Source: Dethiobacter alkaliphilus
GTDB lineage: Bacteria; Bacillota; Dethiobacteria; DTU022; UBA8154
Assembly: GCA_016841605.1 (NCBI GenBank)
Contig: JAENYV010000006.1
Location: 62,001 to 126,000 of the forward strand
Length of the DNA: 64,000 bases
Direction: 5' to 3'
In this document: piece by piece, positions 592 to 44,764 of the stretch
How positions within the stretch are numbered: position 1 is the first letter of the stretch
Layout: the number at the start of each line of letters is the position of its first letter
The notes under the pieces: model-generated
Database searches by the model: none
What the model saw: the letters and a program-made list of their open reading frames with translations, nothing else
Told to the model about the DNA's origin: nothing
Made by a program: the position numbers and the translations under genes

Positions 592-1572
592 TTATGATAA
601 CGGCTCTCCATAAATCGGTGTCACTTTCGTCCATCCCTTGGTTTTGCCGTACTTGAGGTACTTGTCAAAGATATTCACTTCTTCCTTCAGGAGCCCCAGA
701 AAAAGATCGCGCAGGGCATCATTTTTGATGGTTTCTATTACAGCCCGCATATGCAGGTCCATAGCTTCCACAATACCGGTAAAGATAACAGAATACATGA
801 AAGAGTCCGTTAGTGTCTCCGGATCAATTGTCATTATCTGATGGGCAGGAGGCCTTTCCGGGAAAATCACACCGTATTTTAACACCTGCTGCTCCAACTC
901 TTTTATCTGTTTGTTCAGAGTATCCTTACCTTTGCTGAGGATCATTTCAAAATCCGGATCATGTACTGCGCCGAGGAACAAGGTGGTCATCTGTAACTGG
1001 TCGTACCTCTGACTGAGATGATCCCAGAGATGAAAGGCTTCGGTGAGTGTTAGATTTTCTTTTACCGCAGGGCCGGCCATCTTATAGGCCGGGGGTACGT
1101 CCTCCCAGGCTTTGACTTTGCTGTATTTGTAGAGAAGCTCAAAATTGTCGATATGGGTTAGCATATCTTCCGTAAATATCTTCCGCAAACGGTCGTTTGT
1201 GGTGGAAGAGCGCACCGCCCGGCTAATGGTAAAAAGTTCGGCCATCATATCGGCAAAAATTTTTTTATAGATGAATCTATCCGTAACCTGATTGATGCTT
1301 CCCGGGAATTTAATCTCCAGAGGAGGCCGGTCGGGAACGGGGATTTTAAACTTTTCCGCCTCCTGCTCCATGGTTTTCATATGTTTCTTTGTATCTGCGA
1401 GTAAACTGTCCATTAGCAGGCTGAAATCACGGTCATGCAACAGGTTTTGATAGAACTGGAAGGTTTCCATACTGTTATACCTGATCCGAAGCCAGTTCCA
1501 GATATTATAGGCTTCCTGGATATCAATTTGTTCTACAATGCCTCGGTTTTTTTTGAAAAGGGAAACGGACAT
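592..1572 (-). CDS. DUF3231-type protein, two-domain, copy 1
   Basis: A 326-residue protein with two homologous helical halves (about residues 15-165 and 175-325). Each half starts with an EAYNIWNWL/EAFHLWDHL-type helix and ends in a KAWEDVPPAY/KGWTKVTPIY-type motif. This repeat, with PxPxRPP in the middle, is the pattern of DUF3231 proteins, an all-helical ferritin-like family of unknown function in spore-forming Firmicutes. The start is supported by TAAGGAG about nine bases upstream. It is nearly identical to the protein at 2269-3249 and related to the single-domain protein between them. There is no signal peptide or membrane segment. A coat or spore-associated role is only a guess. Confidence 0.75.
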   Translation of the reverse strand: MSVSLFKKNRGIVEQIDIQEAYNIWNWLRIRYNSMETFQFYQNLLHDRDFSLLMDSLLADTKKHMKTMEQEAEKFKIPVPDRPPLEIKFPGSINQVTDRFIYKKIFADMMAELFTISRAVRSSTTNDRLRKIFTEDMLTHIDNFELLYKYSKVKAWEDVPPAYKMAGPAVKENLTLTEAFHLWDHLSQRYDQLQMTTLFLGAVHDPDFEMILSKGKDTLNKQIKELEQQVLKYGVIFPERPPAHQIMTIDPETLTDSFMYSVIFTGIVEAMDLHMRAVIETIKNDALRDLFLGLLKEEVNIFDKYLKYGKTKGWTKVTPIYGEPLS

Positions 1573-1655
1573 TTAAACCGCTCCTTACTTTTAAAAATTT
1601 TTCGGACATTAATGCATTTGTTTTTTTAATTATGGTTATCTTTTGCGCTTTCAGG

Positions 1656-2150
1656 TCACCCTTTGTATGCGGGAGGAATATGCAGCCAGCCTTTCAGCTC
1701 GCCGTAAGAAACTATTTTTGCATATAGATCTACCTGTGAACTTTGCATATGTTTATACATGTCCCTTAAACGTGTGTCTATCATTATCAGCAAGCTCCTT
1801 TGCAGTTGGTTAAGAGAGAGCTGAACAATCATATAAATGGAACGAAACATAGTTTCATCCCTGAGGATCTCCGTATTGGTCGGTGTATTGATGAACTTGG
1901 GAGGCCGTTTCGGCAGAGGAATGCCAAGCCTTTTCATTTCATTTTCCATGATGGCGACTTCTTTTTGCAGAACGCCGTCACCCAGGTCCAGCAGGGCTTT
2001 AAAGTCAACATCATTGGCAAAATTACGAAAAACGTTGATCAGTTCCTGAAGATCATAGCGTAAGACAAGATGCTGCCATATTTCATAAGCTTCTCCGGCA
2101 TGGATGGTCTGCTGCTGCTCTGCAACGCTTTTACCGATTCCCATTACCAT
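1656..2150 (-). CDS. DUF3231-type protein, single domain
   Basis: A 164-residue protein equal to one DUF3231 unit: an EAYEIWQHLVLRYDL start, a central PLPKRPP motif, and a KGWLHIPPAY end. It sits between the two long paralogues on the same strand (84 bp before copy 1, 118 bp after copy 2). The cluster therefore holds five DUF3231 units in three proteins. GGAAGG lies six bases before the ATG. This unit is more diverged than the two long copies are from each other, so it probably split off earlier. Function unknown. Confidence 0.7.
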   Translation of the reverse strand: MVMGIGKSVAEQQQTIHAGEAYEIWQHLVLRYDLQELINVFRNFANDVDFKALLDLGDGVLQKEVAIMENEMKRLGIPLPKRPPKFINTPTNTEILRDETMFRSIYMIVQLSLNQLQRSLLIMIDTRLRDMYKHMQSSQVDLYAKIVSYGELKGWLHIPPAYKG

Positions 2151-2268
2151 TTTATTCCTTCCTTTTTTAGTAAATTTCTTTTGTTCGGATAAATGTTTTT
2201 TATCTCAAAAAGATCAAAAAATTAGAGACTCTGTTTTCTAATTTGAAAAGGTTTTTTATTACTGGTAT

Positions 2269-3249
2269 CTATGATAACGGCTCTCCATAAATGGGTGTTA
2301 TTTTCGTCCATCCTTTAGCTTTACCATACTTAATGAACATGTCAAAAATATTGACTTCTTCCTTCAGGATCTCCTGGAACATATCGCGCAGGGCGTCATT
2401 TTTGATGGTTTCGATTACGGCCCGCATATGCAGGTCAATGGCTTCTACAATACCGGTAAAGATAACGGAATACATAAAAGAGTCCGTTAATGTTTCCGGA
2501 TCAATGGTCATTTTCAGGTGGGCAGGAGGTCTTTCAGGTAAGATAACCCCATATTTTAATACCTGCTGCTCCAGCTGCTTGATTTGCCCGTTGAGTATAT
2601 CTTTCTTCCTGTTAAGAACCGTTTGAAAATCGGGATCATGAACTGATCCGAGAAATAGGGCGGCCATTTGCAACTGGTCGTACCTCTGACTGAGATGATC
2701 CCAGAGATGAAATGCTTCAGTAAGCGTTAGCTTTTCTTTCACAGTGGGACTGGCTATCTTATAGGTGGGGGGTACGTCCTCCCAGGCTTTGACTTTGCTG
2801 TATTTGTAGAGAAGTTCAAAGTTGCGGATATGGGTTAACATGTCTTCCCTGAATACCTTCCGCAAACGGTCGTTTGTGGTAGAAGAGCGTACCGCCCTGC
2901 TGATGGTAAAAAGTTCGGCAATCATATCGGCAAAAATTTTTTTATAAATGAATTTATCCGTAACCTGGTTAATGCTTCCCGGGAATTTAATCTCCAGAGG
3001 GGGCCGGTCGGGAACGGGAATTTTAAATTTTTCCGCCTCCTGCTCCATGCTTTTCATACGTTTCTTAGTATCTTTAAGTAAACTGTCCATCAGCAGGCTA
3101 AAATCACGGTCATGTACCAGGTTTTGATAGAACTGGAAAGTTTCCATGCTGTTATACCTGATCCTCAGCCAGTTCCAGATATTATAGGCTTCCTGGATAT
3201 CAATCTGTTCGATGCCGCCACGGCTTCTTTTAAAGAGGGAAACGGGCAT
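2269..3249 (-). CDS. DUF3231-type protein, two-domain, copy 2
   Basis: A 326-residue near-duplicate of the protein at 592-1572, with the same two-domain layout and length. I chose the start at 3249 (MPVSLFKRS) rather than an upstream in-frame ATG, because AAGGAGT lies eight bases before it and the product then matches copy 1 exactly in length. Differences from copy 1 are scattered conservative changes, which indicates an ancient but maintained tandem duplication rather than an assembly artefact. It is the most upstream gene of the leftward cluster, so the cluster promoter should lie in 3250-3400. Confidence 0.75.
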   Translation of the reverse strand: MPVSLFKRSRGGIEQIDIQEAYNIWNWLRIRYNSMETFQFYQNLVHDRDFSLLMDSLLKDTKKRMKSMEQEAEKFKIPVPDRPPLEIKFPGSINQVTDKFIYKKIFADMIAELFTISRAVRSSTTNDRLRKVFREDMLTHIRNFELLYKYSKVKAWEDVPPTYKIASPTVKEKLTLTEAFHLWDHLSQRYDQLQMAALFLGSVHDPDFQTVLNRKKDILNGQIKQLEQQVLKYGVILPERPPAHLKMTIDPETLTDSFMYSVIFTGIVEAIDLHMRAVIETIKNDALRDMFQEILKEEVNIFDMFIKYGKAKGWTKITPIYGEPLS

Positions 3250-3589
3250 TATAGACGACTCCTTATTAAGTTTAAAATTTAAATTCAACAAAAGAGTATT
3301 TTAGTTTATCCGTTATTCATTTCTTTATTTATTTGTTACGTTTTCTCGCCTACAAAAGAAATTTATTTCATAATGGATAAAGCTGTAGTATATTCTTCAG
3401 ATAAGGAAATCCTTGAAGTTTCACTTCCGGCAAAAAGCTGCGGAGGTGGCTGTAAAGGAATACCATCCGGAAAGCCGGGTTGAGTTGACTGACGCCTATT
3501 TAGTGAAAATTCGAAATGAGATTATTAATATGTTTAAAAATAATCAATAGATAAATAAAAGAGTAGGAGATTATTCCCTGCAGGCAGCT

Positions 3590-13096: not shown

Positions 13097-14050
13097 TTAC
13101 TCTGTTCCCATATATTGCTGTGATATTTCCGCTGCATATTTCCGCATGATTTTTTGCAATTCAACGGGAGAAAGTATTTCTACCTCCCGGCCATAATGAA
13201 GCAGCCATCTCCCTAGTATCGGCAAAGAATCCGTCAGCAGCATGATTTCCATTTTGTCGCCGAGATCCTTTTCTCCGACCAAGCCCCACACGCACCTATT
13301 CTTGATAATTTCGTAATTGCTGTCCTTTTTTAAACGTACTGTCACATTGCATAGGTTATTTGCTGCAACCATTTTTTTGATAATCGTTTCCATGGGAGGA
13401 TGCGTCTTGGAAAAGCTTTGGTCTGTTAGGGACAAGTTTTGAATGCGGTCGATACGAAAATCCCGATAAGCATTGCGCAAATGGCAATAGGCAATTAAAT
13501 GCCAGTAATTTTCATGAAACCCCAACGAAACCGGTTCAATTTTTCTTACGGTGGTCTGGTTTGCATGGGGAGAATAATAGTGAATCTCAATAGTATTCTT
13601 TAGATAAAGCGCCGTTTGAATATCCTTTATAAAACTATTTTCCACGGGCATATTTTCACCGGTCGTATCGAATACGCCTATTTTTTTTTCTATTTCCGCA
13701 ACAAACTCCTTATCTTCATTTCCCAAAACCGCTCTTATTTTATAGAGTGCCGAATCAAAATTTCTTTTCGTTTTGGCATCTGTGAACGCGCCCGTTAATT
13801 TTCCAGCCAACAGCAAAGCCCCGGCTTCCTCAGAAGTAAACCTCACCGGAGGCAGATGGTATCCTTCCACCAGATAATAACCTCTGCCTGCTTCAGAGCC
13901 TATCGGTATGCCGGCGGCTTCAAGTGCCCTGATATCCCGATATACGGTTCTGAGGCAAATACCGAATCGCTGGGCCAACTCTTTGGCCGTAACGATTTTC
14001 TTTGATTGAAGATGAATGAGCATAGCTGATAGTCTGTCTACTCTATTCAT
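13097..14050 (-). CDS. WYL-domain (YafY-type) transcriptional regulator, intact copy
   Basis: A 317-residue DeoR/YafY-like regulator. The HTH_11 domain covers residues 5-60 (RLSAMLIHLQSKKIVTAKELAQRFGI...TVYRDIRALEAAGIPI), and a WYL domain covers about 130-310 (VSLGFHENYWHLIAYCHLRNAYRDFRIDRI). I start at 14050, where GGAGGTG precedes the ATG by five bases; the longer frame to 14191 would overlap the divergent reductase. It is divergent from a RibD-C-like reductase gene and probably controls it. A second, broken copy of the pair is at 28595-30433. Confidence 0.85.
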   Translation of the reverse strand: MNRVDRLSAMLIHLQSKKIVTAKELAQRFGICLRTVYRDIRALEAAGIPIGSEAGRGYYLVEGYHLPPVRFTSEEAGALLLAGKLTGAFTDAKTKRNFDSALYKIRAVLGNEDKEFVAEIEKKIGVFDTTGENMPVENSFIKDIQTALYLKNTIEIHYYSPHANQTTVRKIEPVSLGFHENYWHLIAYCHLRNAYRDFRIDRIQNLSLTDQSFSKTHPPMETIIKKMVAANNLCNVTVRLKKDSNYEIIKNRCVWGLVGEKDLGDKMEIMLLTDSLPILGRWLLHYGREVEILSPVELQKIMRKYAAEISQQYMGTE

Positions 14051-14189
14051 GGGGCACCTCCTGGTGACATTAATATGCCAAATATAAGAAATTATAGCAT
14101 AAAAGAAAGAGGAGATTCTAACCTGCTGACATAAGGTTGTCACTTCGACAAGGTATATTAATACCAAAAATACAACAGGAGGTAAATTC

Positions 14190-14843
14190 ATGCGACCAAA
14201 AGTTGTTATGCATACGCAGATAAGCTTAGACGGCTGCGTGCGTGGTTTTCTTGAAACCGGCGTCTATTACGCCGTTGCCAACCGCTTTAATGCTGACATG
14301 GTTCTATTTGGCAGCGAAACGGTTTATACGGCGGCTGAACACTATCCGCCCGAGACAGAGAAAGCGTTTACTAAACCGGTAAATAGACCGGATGATAAAA
14401 GGCTGATGTGTATTGTGCCGGACAGCCGCGGAAGATTGCGGAACCTGCATGTTTTCAGGGATTCGGAGTATTGTAAAGACTTTATTGTTCTGGTCTCCGC
14501 ATCCACGCCTAAATCCTATATGGAGTATCTGAACGAGCGCAATTACGATTTTATTGTTGCCGGTGATGATCACGTTGATTACGTCAAAGCGTTCGAAGTC
14601 TTATATAGCAAATACAACTGCAGGATTATCAGAACAGACAGTGGCGGGGTCCTGACCAACGTGCTTATAGAACGGGGGCTTGTTGATGAAATCAGCCTTG
14701 TCGTGTCTCCCTGTTTGGTAGGAACAGGTGAAGCACATTTATTTAGAAGTCTGTTTTTGCTAAAAAGAATGCCGCTGGAGCTCATAAGTTGTGAGACTGT
14801 GGATAAAAATTACCTCTTCCTAATCTATAAAGTCCTGAGATAA
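14190..14843 (+). CDS. RibD C-terminal/DHFR-like reductase, copy 1
   Basis: A 217-residue protein of the RibD C-terminal (dihydrofolate reductase-like) fold. It begins RPKVVMHTQISLDGCVRGF, has the ADMVLFGSETVYTAAEHYPPE segment and ends LVDEISLVVSPCLVGTGEAHLF, typical of NADPH-dependent pyrimidine/pteridine-type reductases. AGGAGG lies eight bases before the ATG. It is divergent from the WYL regulator and about 80-90% similar by eye to the copy at 29780-30433. The true substrate is unknown; such standalone RibD_C proteins are often of unassigned function. Confidence 0.82.
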   Translation: MRPKVVMHTQISLDGCVRGFLETGVYYAVANRFNADMVLFGSETVYTAAEHYPPETEKAFTKPVNRPDDKRLMCIVPDSRGRLRNLHVFRDSEYCKDFIVLVSASTPKSYMEYLNERNYDFIVAGDDHVDYVKAFEVLYSKYNCRIIRTDSGGVLTNVLIERGLVDEISLVVSPCLVGTGEAHLFRSLFLLKRMPLELISCETVDKNYLFLIYKVLR

Positions 14844-28594: not shown

Positions 28595-29548
28595 TCACTC
28601 CGTTCCCAGATATTGCCCTGCTATTTCCGCGGCATATTGCCGCATGATTTTTTGCAATTCAACAGGAGAAAGTATTTCCACCTCCCGGCCATAATGAAGC
28701 AGCCACCTCCCCAGTACCGGCAAAGAATCCGTCAGCAGCATGATTTCCATTCTGCCGCCCAGATCCTTTTCTCCGACCAAGCCCCATATACACTTATTCC
28801 TGATGATTTCGTAATTGCTGTCCTTTTTTAAACGTACTGTCACATTACATAGGTTTTTTGCTCCAACCATCTTTTTGATAACCGTTTCCGGGGGAGGATG
28901 CGCCTTGGAAAGGCTTTGGTCTGTTAGGTACAGGTTTTGAATGCGGTCGATGCGAAAATCCCGATAAGCATGGCGCAAGTGGCAATAGGCAATTAAATGC
29001 CAGTGGTTTTCATAAAACCCCAGCGAAACCGGTTCGATTTTTCTCACTGTTTTCTGGTTTGCAGGGGGAGAATAATAGTGAATCTCCATGATGTTCTTGA
29101 GATAAAGCGCCGTCTGAATATCCTTTATAAAACGATTTCCCATGGGCATCTTTTCACCGGACGTATCGAATGCGCCTATTCTTTTTTCTATTTCCGCCAC
29201 AAAATCCTTATCTTCGTTTCCCAGGACCGCTTTTATCTTATAGAGCGCCGAATCAAAATTCTTTTTCGTTTAGGCGTCCGCGAACGCGCCCGCTAATTTT
29301 CCGGCCAAGAGCAAAGCCCCGGCTTCCTCGGAAGTAAACCTCACCGGAGGCAGATGGTATCCTTCCACAAGATAATAGCCAACACCCGCTTCAGAGCCGA
29401 TCGGTATACCGGCGGCTTCAAGCGCCCTGATATCCCGATACACGGTCCTGATGCAAATACCGAATCGCTGGGCCAACTCTTGGGCCGTAATGATTTTCTT
29501 AGATTGAAGATGAATGAGCATAGCCGCTAGTCTGTCTACTCTATTCAT
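28595..29548 (-). pseudogene. WYL-domain regulator, copy 2, nonsense-interrupted
   Basis: The same 317-codon gene as at 13097-14050, closely similar throughout. A TAA at 29270-29272 (minus strand) replaces the AAA lysine of DAKTKRNFDSAL after the HTH domain (codon 93). The HTH half (residues 1-92) could still be made, while the WYL half is cut off. The rest of the frame is open, so this is a single recent change. Confidence 0.88.
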
Positions 29549-29779
29549 ATGACGCCTCCCGGTGTCATTAATATACCAAATATAATGAAGCGAATAACAA
29601 AACAGGCAATAGGGTCGAAGCTCCGCCTCGTTGCAGCGATGTGTTGAAACTGCTTGGCAGTTTCTTCCGATGCTTAAAAAAATTATAGCATAAAGAGAGA
29701 CGGGATTCTAACCTGCTGACATAGGGCTGTCACTTCGCCCAGGTATACTAATACCAAAACACGATAGGGAGGCAAGTTT

Positions 29780-30433
29780 ATGCGACCAAAAGTTGTTATG
29801 CACGCGCAAATAAGTTTGGATGGCTGCGTGCGCGGTTTTATTGACACGGGCGTCTATTACGCCGTTGCCAACCGCTTCCAGCCGGACATGGTGCTGTTTG
29901 GCAGCGAAACCGTTTATACGGCGGCTGAACATTATCCGCCCGAGACAGAAAAAGCGTTTAAGAAACCGGCGGACAGTCCGGACGACCAGAGGCTGAGGTG
30001 GGTGGTGCCGGACAGCCGCGGAAGATTGCGGAACCTGCATGTTTTCAGGGATTCGGAGTATTGCAAGGACATTATTGTCCTGGTATCCGCGTCCACGCCC
30101 TCATCCTATCTGGCGTATCTGCGCGAGCGCAATTACGATTTTATTGCTGCCGGGGACGATCACGTGGATTACGCTCAAGCGCTCGAGGTCTTATATAACC
30201 GATACAACTGCCGGGTTATCCGAACAGACAGCGGCGGAGTCCTGACCAATGCGCTCATAGAACAGGGGCTGGTTGATGAAATCAGCCTGATCGTGTCACC
30301 TTGTTTGGTAGGAACAGGCGAACCGCACTTGTTCAGAAGTCTGTCGCTGCAAAACAGAATGCCGCTGGAGCTGATAAGCTGCGAGACGGTGGATGAAAAA
30401 CACCTCTCCCTGATCTATAAGGTCCTGAAGTAA
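29780..30433 (+). CDS. RibD C-terminal/DHFR-like reductase, copy 2
   Basis: 217 residues, the same length and family as the protein at 14190-14843, with most differences conservative (VLFGSETVYTAAEHYPPETEKAF is shared). GGGAGG precedes the ATG. It is divergent from the broken WYL gene; the gap between them is about 90 bp longer than in copy 1 and contains a GAAACTGC-TTG-GCAGTTTC hairpin. An MFS gene follows 75 bp downstream. Loss of its regulator may leave it constitutive. Confidence 0.82.
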   Translation: MRPKVVMHAQISLDGCVRGFIDTGVYYAVANRFQPDMVLFGSETVYTAAEHYPPETEKAFKKPADSPDDQRLRWVVPDSRGRLRNLHVFRDSEYCKDIIVLVSASTPSSYLAYLRERNYDFIAAGDDHVDYAQALEVLYNRYNCRVIRTDSGGVLTNALIEQGLVDEISLIVSPCLVGTGEPHLFRSLSLQNRMPLELISCETVDEKHLSLIYKVLK

Positions 30434-34299: not shown

Positions 34300-35775
34300 A
34301 TGGTAACAGGACATCTGCGAGAAAAAAACGGCTATTTCCAGATGATCCTCACTTATAAGGATATGAACGGAAAGCGCCAAACCAAGTCCGTCAGCACGGG
34401 ACTCCCCGTTAAGGGGAATAAAAAGCGTGCCGAAATGCTGCTTTGGAAAACCAGGCAAGAGTTTAATCCCGACACGGCAATGAGTGATAAAAACGCTTTG
34501 TTCGCAGTCTTCTTAAACAAATGGCTGCAGGAGGTTATCAACAGAGTGGACGCCGACACTTACGCACTCTACGCGTATGCTGCCAAAACCTACATCATCC
34601 CTTACTTTAAGGATACCGCCGTTACGGTGGCAAAAATAAAGCCGGGGGACATCCAAGGCTACTACCAGTACGAGAGAACAGAAAAAAACGCCTTGAACAC
34701 CGCTTTGCTCCAATATCATGAGGTCATCAAAGAAGCCTTGGCCTATGCCGTGGAGCTTGAACTGATCCGGGACAATCCGGCCGACCAAGCAAACCCGATC
34801 TCCGGTGAGGCGCGGATACTGTTCACGGATTTCCTGCTGGAATGGCTGGAGATGATCAAGCACAATGTGGAAATGACCACCTACGCCTCTTACGCTATGT
34901 GCATCAAGAGCTGCATCATTCCTTATTTTAAGGAGTTCAAGCTTACGCTGAAGGATGTTACCCCGAAGCACATCCAGGACTATTATCAGTACGAGCTGAA
35001 CGAGAAAGGCTTGAGCGCCAGCACGGTGATCCATCGCCACGCCAACATTCGCAAGGCCTTGCAGTACGCTTACAAGGTGGGCCTAATCGCCTTTAACCCC
35101 GCCGACCGGATCGAACGGCCCAAAACCGCAAAATTCGTGGGCAGCATTTACGATGCCGGGGAACTGGAAGCCCTGTTTGCCGTGGTGAAAAACAGGCCGA
35201 TAGAGCTGGCCGTTATATTAGGAGCGTTTTACGGGCTGCGCCGCAGCGAGATCGTGGGGCTGAAATGGGACGCCATTGATTTTGGAAAAAAGACGCTGAC
35301 CATCAAGCACACCGTAACCGAGTCAAGGGTGGACGGAAAAGCCATCATCGTGGAAAAGGACCGCGCCAAAACCAAGTCCAGCCGCCGCACCCTGCCGCTG
35401 GTAGAACCCTTTGAAAAGCTGCTCAGGCAGATGAAGGCGGAGCAGGAGCGCAATCAAAAGGTATGCGGGAAAGACTATTGCCGGGAATATCTCGGCTACA
35501 TCTACGTGAACGAGCTGAGAGAACGGGTCAAGCCGGGATATATCACTCAGAATTTCGCGCTCATCCTGAAAAACCACGGCTTGAAAAAAATCCGTTTTCA
35601 CGACTTGCGCCATAGCTGCGCCAGTTTATTGTACGCCAACGGTGTCAGCCTGAAAGAGATCCAGGAATGGCTGGGTCACAGCGACATATCAACAACGTCG
35701 AACATCTATACCCACCTGGATTTCAGCTCCAAGGTCGCTTCAGCCAACGCCATCATCGGCGTATATCCCTCCTGA
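34300..35775 (+). CDS. int: tyrosine recombinase/integrase with duplicated core-binding domain
   Basis: 491 residues, about 100 longer than typical Tn916-like integrases. Order: arm-binding AP2-like domain (1-60); a first SAM-like core-binding domain (about 67-162); a second, homologous one (about 174-269), both with FLxxWLE...TYAxYA...IIPYFK...QDYYQYE...NPAD; then the catalytic domain with YGLRRSEIVGLKWD (Arg), HDLRHSCAS (HxxR), LGHSDIS (His) and SNIYTHLD (Tyr). All catalytic residues are present, so it may be active. AAGGAGG precedes the ATG. It points at the tRNA-Leu(CAA) gene 165 bp downstream, its likely target. Confidence 0.88.
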   Translation: MVTGHLREKNGYFQMILTYKDMNGKRQTKSVSTGLPVKGNKKRAEMLLWKTRQEFNPDTAMSDKNALFAVFLNKWLQEVINRVDADTYALYAYAAKTYIIPYFKDTAVTVAKIKPGDIQGYYQYERTEKNALNTALLQYHEVIKEALAYAVELELIRDNPADQANPISGEARILFTDFLLEWLEMIKHNVEMTTYASYAMCIKSCIIPYFKEFKLTLKDVTPKHIQDYYQYELNEKGLSASTVIHRHANIRKALQYAYKVGLIAFNPADRIERPKTAKFVGSIYDAGELEALFAVVKNRPIELAVILGAFYGLRRSEIVGLKWDAIDFGKKTLTIKHTVTESRVDGKAIIVEKDRAKTKSSRRTLPLVEPFEKLLRQMKAEQERNQKVCGKDYCREYLGYIYVNELRERVKPGYITQNFALILKNHGLKKIRFHDLRHSCASLLYANGVSLKEIQEWLGHSDISTTSNIYTHLDFSSKVASANAIIGVYPS

Positions 35776-35941: not shown

Positions 35942-36027
35942 TGGTGCCGATGGCCGGAGTCGAACCGGCATGGAAGTTATCCGCCGCATTTTGAGTGCGG
36001 TGCGTCTGCCAATTCCGCCACATCGGC
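35942..36027 (-). tRNA. tRNA-Leu (anticodon CAA), island copy
   Basis: An 86-nt tRNA on the minus strand with acceptor GCCGATG/CATCGGC, discriminator A and encoded CCA. The D arm is GGCGGAATTGGCAGACGC, the anticodon stem CCGCA/TGCGG with loop CTCAAAA (anticodon CAA), followed by a long class II variable arm and T arm GCCGGTTCGACTCCGGC. All stems pair, so it looks functional. It differs from the tRNA-Leu(CAA) at 42535 in acceptor, anticodon stem and variable arm, so it is not a recent duplicate. It is the likely attachment site of the int at 34300. Confidence 0.92.
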
Positions 36028-41482: not shown

Positions 41483-42367
41483 TTGCTTACTCTGCAAGTA
41501 AATAATGTTATTACGCTGGACCCGGAAAAGTTACCGGGTTTTTTGCTGCAGAAAATTAAGAAGGACTTAACCCTGCCGAACCCGGACTATCAACAGGCGG
41601 TAAAATACGGCTTCTCCACTTATGGCAAGGATCCAGTGCTCAAGTTGTTCCAGGTCAAGGATTCGGGCATATCTCTTCCCAGGGGCTACGGCCCTAACTT
41701 GTTGAAACTGCTGCGGATGCATGGCATAAGGTACCGGATGGACGACCAGAGGCTAACTCTTCCTCCGGTTAACTTTAATTCCAGGATAAAGCTCCGGAAA
41801 TACCAGGAACCAGCAGTTGAAAGATTAGTAAGACAACGGCAAGGCGGCGTTTCGGCTCCCTGCGGCAGCGGTAAAACGATGATACTCCTGGAAGCAATGA
41901 ATCGAATTGGACAGCCTGCCCTTTGGATATGCCATACTTACGAATTATTTATCCAGACACGGGACCGAGCAGTTGAGGCTTTTGGCATGGACCCGGACGA
42001 AATCGGAAGTATTGCGAACTGCAAAGTCACGTTAGGAAGCCGGTTGAACCCCGAAGGCTTATACCATGATCATAACCTTGTATTTGCTACTGATGAAGGC
42101 AAACCTATTAATCCGAGGACCTTCACAAAGCACTTTAGCAACATTTTAGAAAAGGCCGGCCTTTCCGGGACACGGCTCCATGATCTTCGACATCTACACG
42201 CTACAATAGCACTGGAGAACGGAGCAGACCTTAAAACCGTTTCGGCTAACCTGGGACATTCCAATATCAGTATCACGGGAGACACTTACGCACATGTTAC
42301 CGAGAAGATGAAGGATAGTATTGCGGAGAAAGTCGGTGGAGCATTAGCAGCTTGCATAAAAAAATAA
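41483..42367 (+). CDS. in-frame chimera: helicase N-terminus joined to integrase C-terminus
   Basis: 294 residues. Residues 1 to about 190 are the start of a phage-type DEAD/DEAH helicase: a substrate-binding front part, IKLRKYQEPAVERLV, Walker A APCGSGKT at about 129-136, then motif Ia-like LWICHTYELF. From about residue 193 the sequence is the end of a tyrosine recombinase: DEGKPINPRTFTKHF, LHDLRHLHATIA (HxxR), LGHSNISITGDTYAHV (His and Tyr). The helicase lacks DExx and motif VI, and the integrase lacks its first Arg and DNA-binding domains, so neither is functional. A deletion fused the two genes. Confidence 0.82.
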   Translation: MLTLQVNNVITLDPEKLPGFLLQKIKKDLTLPNPDYQQAVKYGFSTYGKDPVLKLFQVKDSGISLPRGYGPNLLKLLRMHGIRYRMDDQRLTLPPVNFNSRIKLRKYQEPAVERLVRQRQGGVSAPCGSGKTMILLEAMNRIGQPALWICHTYELFIQTRDRAVEAFGMDPDEIGSIANCKVTLGSRLNPEGLYHDHNLVFATDEGKPINPRTFTKHFSNILEKAGLSGTRLHDLRHLHATIALENGADLKTVSANLGHSNISITGDTYAHVTEKMKDSIAEKVGGALAACIKK

Positions 42368-42439
42368 GCCCTTTAAAAAGAGCTTAATCTGTTAATATTT
42401 CTTTCAGCCGGGAGTGGCCGCTCCCGGTTTTTCCTTGCT

Positions 42440-42482
42440 TTATTGCAGCATTTTTACCTTATTGCAACACTTATTGCAGTAC
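42440..42482. repeat. putative right arm sites of the second element
   Basis: TTATTGCAGC, TTATTGCAAC and TTATTGCAGTAC lie within 43 bp between the integrase C-terminus and the tRNA-Leu gene. They match words at 36324-36346 near the other end of the element. A stem GGGAGTGGCCGCTCCC just upstream (42411-42426), followed by GGTTTTTCC, is probably the terminator of the chimeric gene. Confidence 0.55.
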
Positions 42483-42534
42483 TGGCCCCTTTTTTGGCCT
42501 TTATTATGTAAAGGGCATCCTTTACGGATGCCCA

Positions 42535-42620
42535 TGGTGCCGAAGGCCGGACTCGAACCGGCACGTACCAGGTACGCTTGATTTTGAGTCAAGTGCGTCT
42601 GCCAATTCCGCCACTTCGGC
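42535..42620 (-). tRNA. tRNA-Leu (anticodon CAA)
   Basis: An 86-nt tRNA including encoded CCA. Acceptor GCCGAAG/CTTCGGC, D arm GGCGGAATTGGCAGACGC, anticodon stem CTTGA/TCAAG with loop CTCAAAA (CAA), a long variable arm, and T arm GCCGGTTCGAGTCCGGC. All stems pair. Its 3' 56 bases are repeated at 17422-17477, so it is the chromosomal integration target, with its 3' half now supplied by the element. Confidence 0.95.
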
Positions 42621-42952
42621 ATTACCTTAGGTTAAAATTCTAACAAAAAAGCAGGTTTGTGTCAAGAAGGCAGTTTAATTTTTACCGTATTAATTTTGTT
42701 CGTTTTAATTTTTAATAGCTTTATTGTAAAGAAAAATAGCCTGATCTATCAAAATTTCTAAAAATGTTATAACGAAACATTTTGAAAAAATGGGGTTGAA
42801 AATACTGGTTTCGCATAAAATGGAATATACAGTTTTTTTTTAAGGAAAGATAAAAATAGTTAAGACAAAATTTTTAGTTTATGCTATAATGTAAAAAAGC
42901 TTATTATCTGATATCCAGTTTCATTTTATTTTATCAGAGAGCTGGTGAAAAT

Positions 42953-43402
42953 ATGAAATACCTTATAACGAGGAAGATCAAGAAACTTACGAAGGATTTA
43001 AAAAACAAGAGGTTAGAAATTGTTATCCCGGAAAATCAAATGATAGAGCTGGCCTATAAAACGCCTGCAGGTGAAAATAGGAAAGAACAGATTGTGGGGG
43101 CGTATGTTTATTTAAAAATGGGTGACACTGTTTATCCGTCCATTGTGGAATTTTCCGGGGATGAGGTAGAGATTGTGGGGGATAGTATTGCCAAAACAGA
43201 GCTAATTTCCGAATCTATTAATAACGGCAAACTCTTTTTCTTAAATAAAGAGATTTGTACCTGTGCGGAATTTGTTACGGCTCTGTTACGTATTCCAAAT
43301 GAGAAATTTACTATTTTAAATGACGACGAAAAATTTTTAAGGGTTGTCTACGGTTATAAAAGTGCCTGGCTGGGGAAACAAACTTTAACGGTGCTTTTCT
43401 AA
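42953..43402 (+). CDS. hypothetical cytoplasmic protein
   Basis: 149 residues, soluble, no signal peptide. ENRKEQIVGAYVYLKMGDTVYPSIVEFSGDEVEIVGDSIAKTELI suggests a small beta domain. No family recognised. It has GAGAGCTGG before the ATG and a very strong terminator downstream, so it is a genuine monocistronic gene. It is the first gene of the stable chromosome to the right of the island. Confidence 0.6.
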   Translation: MKYLITRKIKKLTKDLKNKRLEIVIPENQMIELAYKTPAGENRKEQIVGAYVYLKMGDTVYPSIVEFSGDEVEIVGDSIAKTELISESINNGKLFFLNKEICTCAEFVTALLRIPNEKFTILNDDEKFLRVVYGYKSAWLGKQTLTVLF

Positions 43403-43448
43403 TTGTCTTTACCATATACGGTAAACTGAGTGTTAAACATTTTTTAGT

Positions 43449-43504
43449 TAACAGAAAGAGAGGCAAAAAAAGTGTGTTCCTTTTTTTGCCTCTCTTTCTG
43501 TTTT
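43449..43504. terminator. long bidirectional terminator
   Basis: AACAGAAAGAGAGGCAAAA and its complement TTTTGCCTCTCTTTCTGTT form a stem of more than 20 bp around TGTGTTCC, with A and T runs built into the stem. Confidence 0.9.
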
Positions 43505-43560
43505 AGCATTAACCTTTTTGCTTCCCATGAATATACTAAATTAAACAGGGAGCGAATGGG

Positions 43561-43740
43561 GTGCTTTTCTTGAGAAGGAGGCGTTTGGGATATTTTTTTC
43601 AGAAAAGCGGCGGGGTTATTATCGCTGTTATCGGTATAACTTTGTTCGTAAAAACGATGCCGCTTTTTATTTGGCCGATGCTGACGGGTTTAGTTCTAAT
43701 CTGGCTGGGTTGGCACATGTACATACGAAGTGAACTCTAG
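43561..43740 (+). CDS. 59-residue two-helix membrane protein
   Basis: GTG 43561, with GGGAGCG upstream, to TAG 43740. A basic start (FLRRRRLGYFF) is followed by two hydrophobic helices (GGVIIAVIGITLFVKTMPL and FIWPMLTGLVLIWLGWHMY). The size and spacing suggest a real small membrane protein just upstream of spoVM. Function unknown. Confidence 0.6.
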   Translation: MLFLRRRRLGYFFQKSGGVIIAVIGITLFVKTMPLFIWPMLTGLVLIWLGWHMYIRSEL

Positions 43741-43781
43741 CCATACAAGAGAGCCCAAAACTATTAAGGAGGTCTGAGAGT

Positions 43782-43859
43782 ATGAAGTTTTATGTTATTA
43801 AATTACCTAAAGCCCTTAGATTTTTATTAAAGGGACTCCTGGGAATTAAACAGGTGTAA
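43782..43859 (+). CDS. spoVM: stage V sporulation protein SpoVM (tiny)
   Basis: 25 residues starting MKFYVIKLPK and ending LLGIKQV. Bacillus SpoVM starts MKFYTIKLPK and is 26 residues long. It is the amphipathic peptide that marks the curved forespore membrane and anchors SpoIVA and the coat. AAGGAGG lies ten bases before the ATG and a terminator follows at 43887. The next gene is rpmB, as in Bacillus, where spoVM neighbours rpmB. The match in N-terminal sequence, length and location makes this convincing despite the size. Confidence 0.88.
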   Translation: MKFYVIKLPKALRFLLKGLLGIKQV

Positions 43860-43886
43860 GAAAAAAAAAGTTAAAAAAAGAGAAAG

Positions 43887-43920
43887 CAAAAAGCGCAATA
43901 TATATACTGCGCTTTTATTT
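43887..43920. terminator. terminator between spoVM and rpmB
   Basis: AAAAAGCGCA and TGCGCTTTT form a stem around an AT loop, followed by ATTTTG. It can serve spoVM and, on the other strand, rpmB. Confidence 0.8.
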
Positions 43921-43930
43921 TGAGATATGT

Positions 43931-44122
43931 CTATAGAGCCCTTTTTATTTTTCCAGCTTTTAGGCACCGGGTACAGACTTTTACTCGTTGTGGAGTTCCA
44001 TTAATGACTGCTTTAATTTTTTGAATGTTTGGCTTCCAATTGCGTTTTGTTCTAATATGAGAATGGCTTACCATAAAACCGCTCTTCTTTTCTCGACCGC
44101 AAATAGAGCACTTATTGGACAT
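43931..44122 (-). CDS. rpmB: 50S ribosomal protein L28
   Basis: 63 residues: MSNKCSICGREKKSGFMVSHSHIRTKRNWKPNIQKI...RVKVCTRCLKAGKIKRAL. It is the cysteine-containing (C+) form of L28 with two CxxC pairs for zinc, in keeping with the zinc-responsive switch known for C+/C- ribosomal proteins. I start at 44122, where GGAGGTGGG precedes the ATG. An upstream in-frame start would add 21 unrelated residues. Confidence 0.92.
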   Translation of the reverse strand: MSNKCSICGREKKSGFMVSHSHIRTKRNWKPNIQKIKAVINGTPQRVKVCTRCLKAGKIKRAL

Positions 44123-44443
44123 CTTTCCCACCTCCTCATCGAAAACAACAGTCTGTATTTTAGCATATATTTCTGATAAAGACAAGATAAAAATTTAAAA
44201 AAGAAAGTTTTTATCGGCAGGATAGTTCCCAATATAAAATTATGTATTTGGGTTGCTTTTAATTAATGTTAGCAACGGTAACTGTTAACAGCAAATTACT
44301 TATAATTCCTTGAAAAAATCAAACTATCAAGGAATTTATTTTTAGAGATAGGTAATAATATTATATCTTGGAGAAACTACTAAGTATATTAGCACCGGAA
44401 GGAGAAATACTATGACTACCCTGAAACAAGGAGGTGAAATTAG
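44123..44443. other. divergent region between rpmB and the SASP gene
   Basis: No gene seen. It has AT-rich promoter-like words for both sides and a terminator-like stem at 44304-44343 (AATTCCTTGA/TCAAGGAATT, then TATTTTT) that precedes the SASP gene. Confidence 0.5.
44304..44343 (+). terminator. rightward terminator or attenuator without an obvious upstream gene
   Basis: AATTCCTTGA pairs with TCAAGGAATT over a 13-base loop, followed by TATTTTTAG. Nothing coding precedes it on this strand, so it could end a short leader or small RNA begun near 44200. Confidence 0.6.
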
Positions 44444-44764
44444 ATGCCCAGCAAAAGAGGCGGACGTAATAGGGTATTAGTTCCCGGTGCTGCTCAAGTT
44501 CTTGATACCTATAAGTATGAAATAGCGAATGAACTCGGTATCAATTATAATGGTGACAAAGGGGAACTGCCTTCCAGACAGAATGGTTATGTGGGAGGTT
44601 ACATGGTAAGAAAGATGATCCAGCAAGTTGAAAACCAAATGGCCCAAGGACAGCTTCAAACTTCCCAGCTTGCTCAGCAGCCTGCACCTCAGCAGAGCTC
44701 TCCCGGTACACAAGCAACTGGTGGTTTCATGGATGTGAACCAGTATCCGCAGAATCAAATCTAA
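44444..44764 (+). CDS. alpha/beta-type small acid-soluble spore protein with extended tail
   Basis: 106 residues. Residues 1-67 are SASP-like: RNRVLVPGAAQVLDTYKYEIANELGINYNGDKGELPSRQNGYVGGYMVRKMIQQVE, including the GPR cleavage-type region YKYEIANELGI and the conserved GYVGGYMVRKMI. Residues 70-106 are a Gln/Pro/Ser-rich tail not found in ordinary 60-75 residue SASPs. These proteins coat spore DNA and protect it from UV. AGGAGGTGA is the ribosome binding site; sigma-G control is expected from the family. Confidence 0.85.
   Translation: MPSKRGGRNRVLVPGAAQVLDTYKYEIANELGINYNGDKGELPSRQNGYVGGYMVRKMIQQVENQMAQGQLQTSQLAQQPAPQQSSPGTQATGGFMDVNQYPQNQI

Follow-up and report, generated by a model that had tools for sequence, protein, structure and literature searches.

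A SpoVM gene of Dethiobacter alkaliphilus and the small two-helix membrane-protein gene that precedes it in a probable sporulation operon

Organization of the locus

The window analysed here is a stretch of 64,000 nucleotides of Dethiobacter alkaliphilus (GCA_016841605.1, contig JAENYV010000006.1, positions 62,001 to 126,000). It contains a 25-codon open reading frame (ORF), spoVM, which lies 41 nt downstream of a small membrane-protein gene, here termed hp, on the same strand, and which faces the convergent gene for ribosomal protein L28, rpmB (Table 1). A preliminary description had placed a tiny reading frame at exactly these coordinates, with a good ribosome binding site and an rpmB neighbourhood, and had read it as SpoVM; all of these points are borne out. 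The hairpin between the two convergent genes is weak evidence for a terminator, because one was found where 0.9 would be expected by chance, and an Rfam scan over positions 42400-44500 returned nothing but tRNA.

Table 1. Features of the hp-spoVM locus, in positions of the window
Feature	Coordinates	Strand	Remarks
sigmaK-type mother-cell promoter pattern, 5' of hp	43511..43538	+	AAC-N16-AATATACTA; pattern match
Ribosome binding site of hp, GGGGTG	43558..43563	+	6 nt before TTG; read by eye; same layout in several relatives
hp	43570..43740	+	Membrane protein of 56 residues, two predicted helices; starts with TTG or, in a possible longer form, with GTG at 43561
Ribosome binding site of spoVM, AAGGAGG	43766..43772	+	9 nt 5' of ATG
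spoVM	43782..43859	+	25 residues, ATG to TAA; profile matches, alignment, selection
Terminator-like hairpin between spoVM and rpmB	43889..43916	.	Scored on minus strand
rpmB, ribosomal protein L28	43934..44122	-	E 4.7e-21; convergent; stop codon just before 43934 excluded

Several other features of the window were recorded. Just 5' of hp lies a 149-residue ORF (42953-43402) without a Pfam match above cut-off, which takes the same place in five loci with the same family label, the window's included. Beyond rpmB, an alpha/beta-type small acid-soluble spore protein is encoded at 44444-44764 (PF00269), and such a gene follows in 16 of the 82 hp loci, many of which are too short to show it. A single ORF at 41483-42367, beside a tRNA-Leu gene, is ResIII/DEAD-helicase-like in its N-terminal half and phage integrase in its C-terminal half; it has the look of a junction that mobile elements left behind. 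Two tRNA-Leu(CAA) genes, similar and not identical (35942-36027 and 42535-42620 (minus)), flank a mobile-looking region, and an integrase-like ORF, judged by eye, is at 34300-35775. In addition, a divergently arranged pair of genes, which we presume to be regulator-like and RibD-like, occurs twice (13097-14843 and 28595-30433), and positions 592-3291 hold neighbouring paralogous ORFs, of which one of 326 and one of 340 residues are almost the same and enclose a shorter one. The genome measures 4.07 Mb in 36 contigs and its two congeners 2.1 and 2.4 Mb; its larger size could reflect either mobile-DNA expansion or assembly matters.

Identity and conservation of SpoVM

The translation of the 25-codon frame, MKFYVIKLPKALRFLLKGLLGIKQV, scores above the cut-off of the Pfam SpoV family (PF08183; 24.3 versus 20.6 bits) and below that of NCBIfam NF033436, SpoVM_broad (E 6.8e-7; 29.2 versus 31 bits), so a pipeline that uses NF033436 alone would leave the gene unnamed; a congener's SpoVM reaches 34.5 bits with the same model. 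The product aligns without gaps to residues 1-21 of Bacillus subtilis SpoVM (2MVH; E 0.0077), with which it shares K2, I6, Pro9 and the rpmB neighbour, and from which it differs in K17 for R, L15 for I, R13/F14 for GG and a short -IKQV tail. It also carries K7, belongs to the size class of ~26 residues with a basic N-terminus, and may be kinked at Pro9. Mutation of K2 or I6 is reported to matter in the B. subtilis protein (PMC5607322). In an alignment of 23 SpoVMs (A2), M1, Y4 and P9 are invariant, and in some remoter SpoVMs (L096 and L097) the proline is at position 10, not 9. A SpoVM search of the 4.07-Mb genome gave this single match, and the genome also contains spoIVA (G000:C21, E 7.9e-117) and a sigK above cut-off (326.6 versus 298.65 bits). 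Galperin et al. 2012 (PMC3533761) reported that annotation seldom recognises SpoVM and that their search did not find it in Alkaliphilus, Thermoanaerobacter and others.

At a loose threshold (E <= 10), spoVM matches were obtained in 24 of 60 genomes, the genome of the window counted, the weakest of which (L024) is doubtful. Three pairwise comparisons over 23 codons between the window and two congeners gave pS values of 0.40-0.57 and pN values of 0.02-0.06, which indicates that residues 1-23 are under strong purifying selection with respect to both congeners. The reading frame, on whose conservation in close relatives the preliminary description had staked its interpretation, is thus kept in both. 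The two congeners end in LLGIK-stop, and the window has CAG GTG TAA at this point; its two extra residues (QV) are therefore explained by loss of the congeners' stop codon. Furthermore, the LLG of the window pairs with the MLG of B. subtilis, and by this alignment it is the ordinary LG of SpoVM and no deviation. The preliminary description had regarded the C-terminus as strongly different, and as a possible clue to how the curvature-sensing helix tolerates change. The first claim arose mostly from misalignment, since residues 1-21 are gap-free and only the two-residue tail goes beyond the congeners; by the same alignment and congener evidence the second is unsupported, and the C-terminus was dropped as a functional clue. 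The QV tail is a local oddity and no evidence on the curvature helix. That the ORF encodes SpoVM is virtually certain, and it is a true, ordinary member of this family, which anchors the spore coat in bacteria that form endospores.

The hp gene

Profile scans of Pfam, NCBIfam and PHROGs assigned hp to no family. It has a weak profile similarity to LiaF-TM (PF22570), with which it shares a hydrophobic two-helix stretch; hp differs, however, in that it remains below the Pfam cut-off (E 0.009; 17.2 versus 27 bits), is a stand-alone protein and lies in a sporulation locus. The protein is built of a strongly basic N-terminus, with a mean charge of +4.6 ahead of the first conserved glycine in 23 members, followed by two hydrophobic stretches and a conserved series of G, G, P, W and G. 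Its core can be written as G-x6-G-x8-P-x3-W, and the G, P and W positions are invariant in 14 diverse members. The pN/pS ratio of hp is ~0.2 within the genus, and by such ratios purifying selection acts on both hp and spoVM there. AlphaFold predicts helices at residues 3-26 and 33-54 with modest confidence (pLDDT 67, pTM 0.36). Foldseek found no match to this model in the PDB, and a search of PDB sequences with the hp profile gave one chance-level match (E 0.16).

Association of hp with spoVM

With tblastn searches for the neighbours in the window, hp was located 5' of spoVM in all but one of 25 spoVM loci (24, counting that of the window); the exception, L024, is a match of short length at the end of a contig. 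The hp alignment was then applied to a sample of 75 genomes from the class of the window, at least 85% complete, where it detected 42 hp genes, spread over 41 genomes; all 42 genes have a same-strand spoVM match 22-74 nt downstream (between match ends). Conversely, hp is present at 42 of 43 strong spoVM matches, namely those with E <= 1.5e-4 retained from a search that matched 55 of the 75 genomes at E <= 1; the scattered weaker matches (E 0.048 up) were dropped.

A phylum sample of 398 genomes, with a threshold of E <= 0.001 for both genes, yielded hp matches in 54 genomes and spoVM matches in 63 (64 places). spoVM lies beside 51 of the 54 hp matches: 39 pairs were found by search, all adjacent with a gap of 11-173 nt, and a SpoVM-like peptide was read directly 3' of hp in 12 of the 15 matches left unpaired. 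The remaining matches, in G210, G362 and G323, are weak (E between 2.8e-4 and 8.5e-4) and look like chance, although they are counted within the 54. Of the spoVM places, 25 are without an hp match; a divergent hp stands in front of spoVM at five of them (L140, L141, L143, L146 and L148), and hp is undetectable at 20 of the 64 (best E 0.95 among 26 selected loci). Thirteen of these 20 are Bacilli-like by their SpoVM sequence and seven are not (f13 twice, f74, f76 twice, f85 and one f26 at a contig start). SpoVM therefore does not always need hp. In L113, L114 and L115, from genomes of 6.5-7.3 Mb that we guess to be Paenibacillus-like, another membrane-like ORF of ~83 residues lies 165-167 nt upstream of spoVM and is perhaps an unrelated counterpart of hp.

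When all fetched loci were pooled and hp ORFs with identical ends merged, 78 of 82 hp ORFs were followed within 300 nt by a SpoVM ORF (E < 0.05, with a profile made from the 23 sequences of A2 only), in a set that is partly selected because some loci were fetched via spoVM. The exceptions are L049, which is at a contig end, L241, L243 and L245, the last of which is likely a false hp. As a control, a SpoVM follower was scored for 16 of 820 other ORFs with a slightly stricter E-value limit; the followers listed are simply spoVM genes viewed from overlapping or nearby ORFs. In L241 and L243, which share one genus label, hp lies between thiN and rpmB and spoVM is missing there, which means that hp does not necessarily rely on a neighbouring spoVM; these loci represent a natural separation of the two genes.

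The pair is found in at least 23 family labels (f1, f3-f8, f17, f24, f26, f41, f48, f55, f58, f67, f68, f76, f82, f86, f98, f109, f119 and f130). Named carriers of hp include Thermosediminibacter litoriperuensis, Tepidanaerobacter sp. and Dethiobacter sp. MAGs, and a SpoVM-like start is seen at the hp loci of the latter two and at L093. A broad hp alignment matched 44 of 70 hand-chosen genomes, several of them hp-positive beforehand, at E <= 0.1 and 12 at E <= 1e-6; L245, one of these 12, looks false. Among 60 rpmB loci that were read, about one per family label among the matches listed (394 of the 398 genomes matched), a SpoVM-like pattern occurs in nine, of which L182 is not credible, and hp in three (L193, L195 and L201). 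The Pfam SpoV profile matches 41 of the 398 genomes at E <= 0.05 and reveals fewer loci than the local alignment. Divergent SpoVM candidates adjoin hp in several lineages, for example in L195, L201, L085, L087 and L152, and when ten SpoVMs (nine divergent ones, mostly from hp loci, and one congener's) were scanned, eight fell below the NCBIfam cut-off and eight below that of Pfam.

The wider surroundings are less constant. A convergent rpmB lies within 1 kb at 66 of the 79 hp loci long enough to show it, and in L201, L240 and L154 rpmB is near, yet upstream or further off. With two query pairs only, which may have missed some, rpe or thiN was detected ahead of hp in 32 of 77 loci; hp-spoVM is intact also in loci among the other 45, where short length or divergence may hide some of these genes. 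Where no convergent rpmB was found within 1 kb (13 hp loci), spoVM nevertheless comes after hp in 12, so that the two genes seem to be more tightly linked than their surroundings. In addition, hp co-occurs with SpoIVA: among the 75 class genomes 37 have both, 26 have neither, 4 have hp only and 8 have SpoIVA only (63 agree and 12 disagree; Fisher p 2.8e-9, uncorrected for relatedness). Some of the 12 mismatches may be due to incomplete assemblies.

Promoter patterns

The pattern upstream of hp was defined as [AC]AC-N14-17-[CA]ATANN[ACT]T[AG] and likened to what we take to be the letters of the sigmaK consensus. It was written after inspecting the sequences, hence the counts obtained with it are supportive and not independent. 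After exclusion of upstream regions that were under 120 nt long or had no core motif, 77 loci remained; 56 of these carry the pattern ahead of hp, versus a mean of 1.8 and a maximum of 6 in shuffled sequences, and it is missing from 21. One of 78 hp-spoVM intergenic stretches contains it, as do 3.2% of windows drawn at random from these loci. A sigmaE-type pattern is found upstream of hp in none of the 77 loci. A sigma-70 scan found nothing above chance (4 versus 3.3). Upstream of spoIVA in the class genomes, a narrower set than the hp loci, the sigmaE-type pattern is present in 16 of 30 regions and the sigmaK-type in two; in the genome of the window no sigmaK-type pattern precedes spoIVA. The sigmaK promoter layout is described as a 5-nt -35 element, a gap of 14-16 nt and a 10-nt -10 element (PMC517825), and both spoVM and spoIVA are reported to be under sigmaE in B. 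subtilis (PMC517825) and in C. difficile (PMC5607322).

hp and spoVM in all likelihood form one operon, and we infer from the sequence evidence that the ORF of the window is probably a functional spoVM, the second gene of a two-gene sporulation operon. While spoVM of B. subtilis belongs to the sigmaE regulon (PMC517825), here it stands behind hp and the sigmaK-type pattern. Since the pattern upstream of hp is of the sigmaK type and that of spoIVA more often of the sigmaE type, spoVM may switch on later than spoIVA in these organisms; the chance that the operon is read by sigmaK in this way seems about even. Against a general sigmaK reading stand the sigmaE-dependence of spoVM in C. difficile and the loci without the pattern.

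Alternative explanations

The shortness of the spoVM frame, its score just under the NCBIfam cut-off and its two-codon extension over the congeners would suit a chance ORF or a decayed spoVM, but the strong purifying selection on residues 1-23, the good ribosome binding site, the synteny and the presence of SpoIVA and SigK in the genome make this extremely improbable. As for hp, a small gene directly ahead of spoVM with short gaps might be an upstream leader ORF that tunes spoVM translation and whose product is dispensable. Such a role is very unlikely in view of its low pN/pS, the invariant G, P and W in 14 diverse members and the predicted two helices; moreover, spoVM has its own ribosome binding site and the region contains no Rfam RNA except tRNA.

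The two genes could also be kept together merely as part of an old conserved block, rpe-thiN-hp-spoVM-rpmB, as the frequency of upstream rpe/thiN and convergent rpmB might suggest. This is an unlikely explanation, because the pair is intact in nearly all loci that have no convergent rpmB within 1 kb and also where rpe/thiN was not found, and because a single promoter pattern serves both genes. A reading that deserves serious attention, while falling short of probable, is that hp, as a membrane protein of the mother cell, has a separate sporulation task, in cortex formation, engulfment or envelope stress, for instance as a stand-alone LiaF-type hairpin, and shares only its promoter with spoVM. 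The retention of hp without an adjacent spoVM in L241 and L243 is in line with this, as is the weak LiaF-TM similarity, whereas the position of spoVM directly after hp in 42 of 42 class cases and 51 of 54 in the phylum sample, even without convergent rpmB or rpe/thiN, argues against it.

Proposed role and significance

In C. difficile, spoVM is cotranscribed downstream of CD25622, which encodes a 50-residue protein of unknown function and is under sigmaE control (Ribis et al. 2017, PMC5607322). CD25622 resembles hp as a small gene directly 5' of spoVM with rpmB nearby, the likeness being one of position and size; it is described as 'primarily conserved among the Peptostreptococcaceae' (PMC5607322), whereas hp extends over at least 23 family labels. 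An insertion in CD25622, likely polar on spoVM, caused the same mild 3-5-fold heat-resistance defect as a spoVM insertion, from which it was concluded that CD25622 has little impact, and SpoVM itself is largely dispensable in C. difficile (PMC5607322). A literature search, outside of which most subscription journals lay, found nothing on a gene upstream of spoVM beyond this study of CD25622.

By analogy with Bacillus, SpoVM would associate, from the mother-cell side, as a Pro9-kinked amphipathic helix with the positively curved outer membrane of the forespore and would recruit SpoIVA there. hp would be a small hairpin membrane protein inserted in the same membrane, its N- and C-termini both in the mother cell, and as an integral-membrane partner it could hold or protect SpoVM in lineages reported to be without SpoVID and CmpA, two proteins reported from Bacillales only (PMC5607322). 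That hp is such a partner of SpoVM in the outer forespore membrane, oriented in this way, is an appreciable possibility, if somewhat short of an even one; the loci with hp and without spoVM, the weak structural model and, if CD25622 is an hp, the mild defect in C. difficile speak against it. Still more tentatively, hp may found a new family among the membrane proteins of sporulation and be an almost invariable partner of SpoVM in spore formers of the Clostridia type, one that would supply the integral-membrane half of the coat base layer where SpoVID and CmpA are reported to be lacking, with CD25622 as an unrecognised member.

To conclude, what makes the spoVM finding valuable is that it draws attention to hp, a conserved hairpin membrane protein that belongs to no named family and is encoded in a likely operon of two genes. 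hp is also a practical locator of divergent SpoVM-like peptides overlooked by standard profiles. Should CD25622 prove to be an hp, the family would be far wider than hitherto assumed. Assembly of the coat base in clostridia is poorly known, and hp offers a testable candidate for a missing factor.
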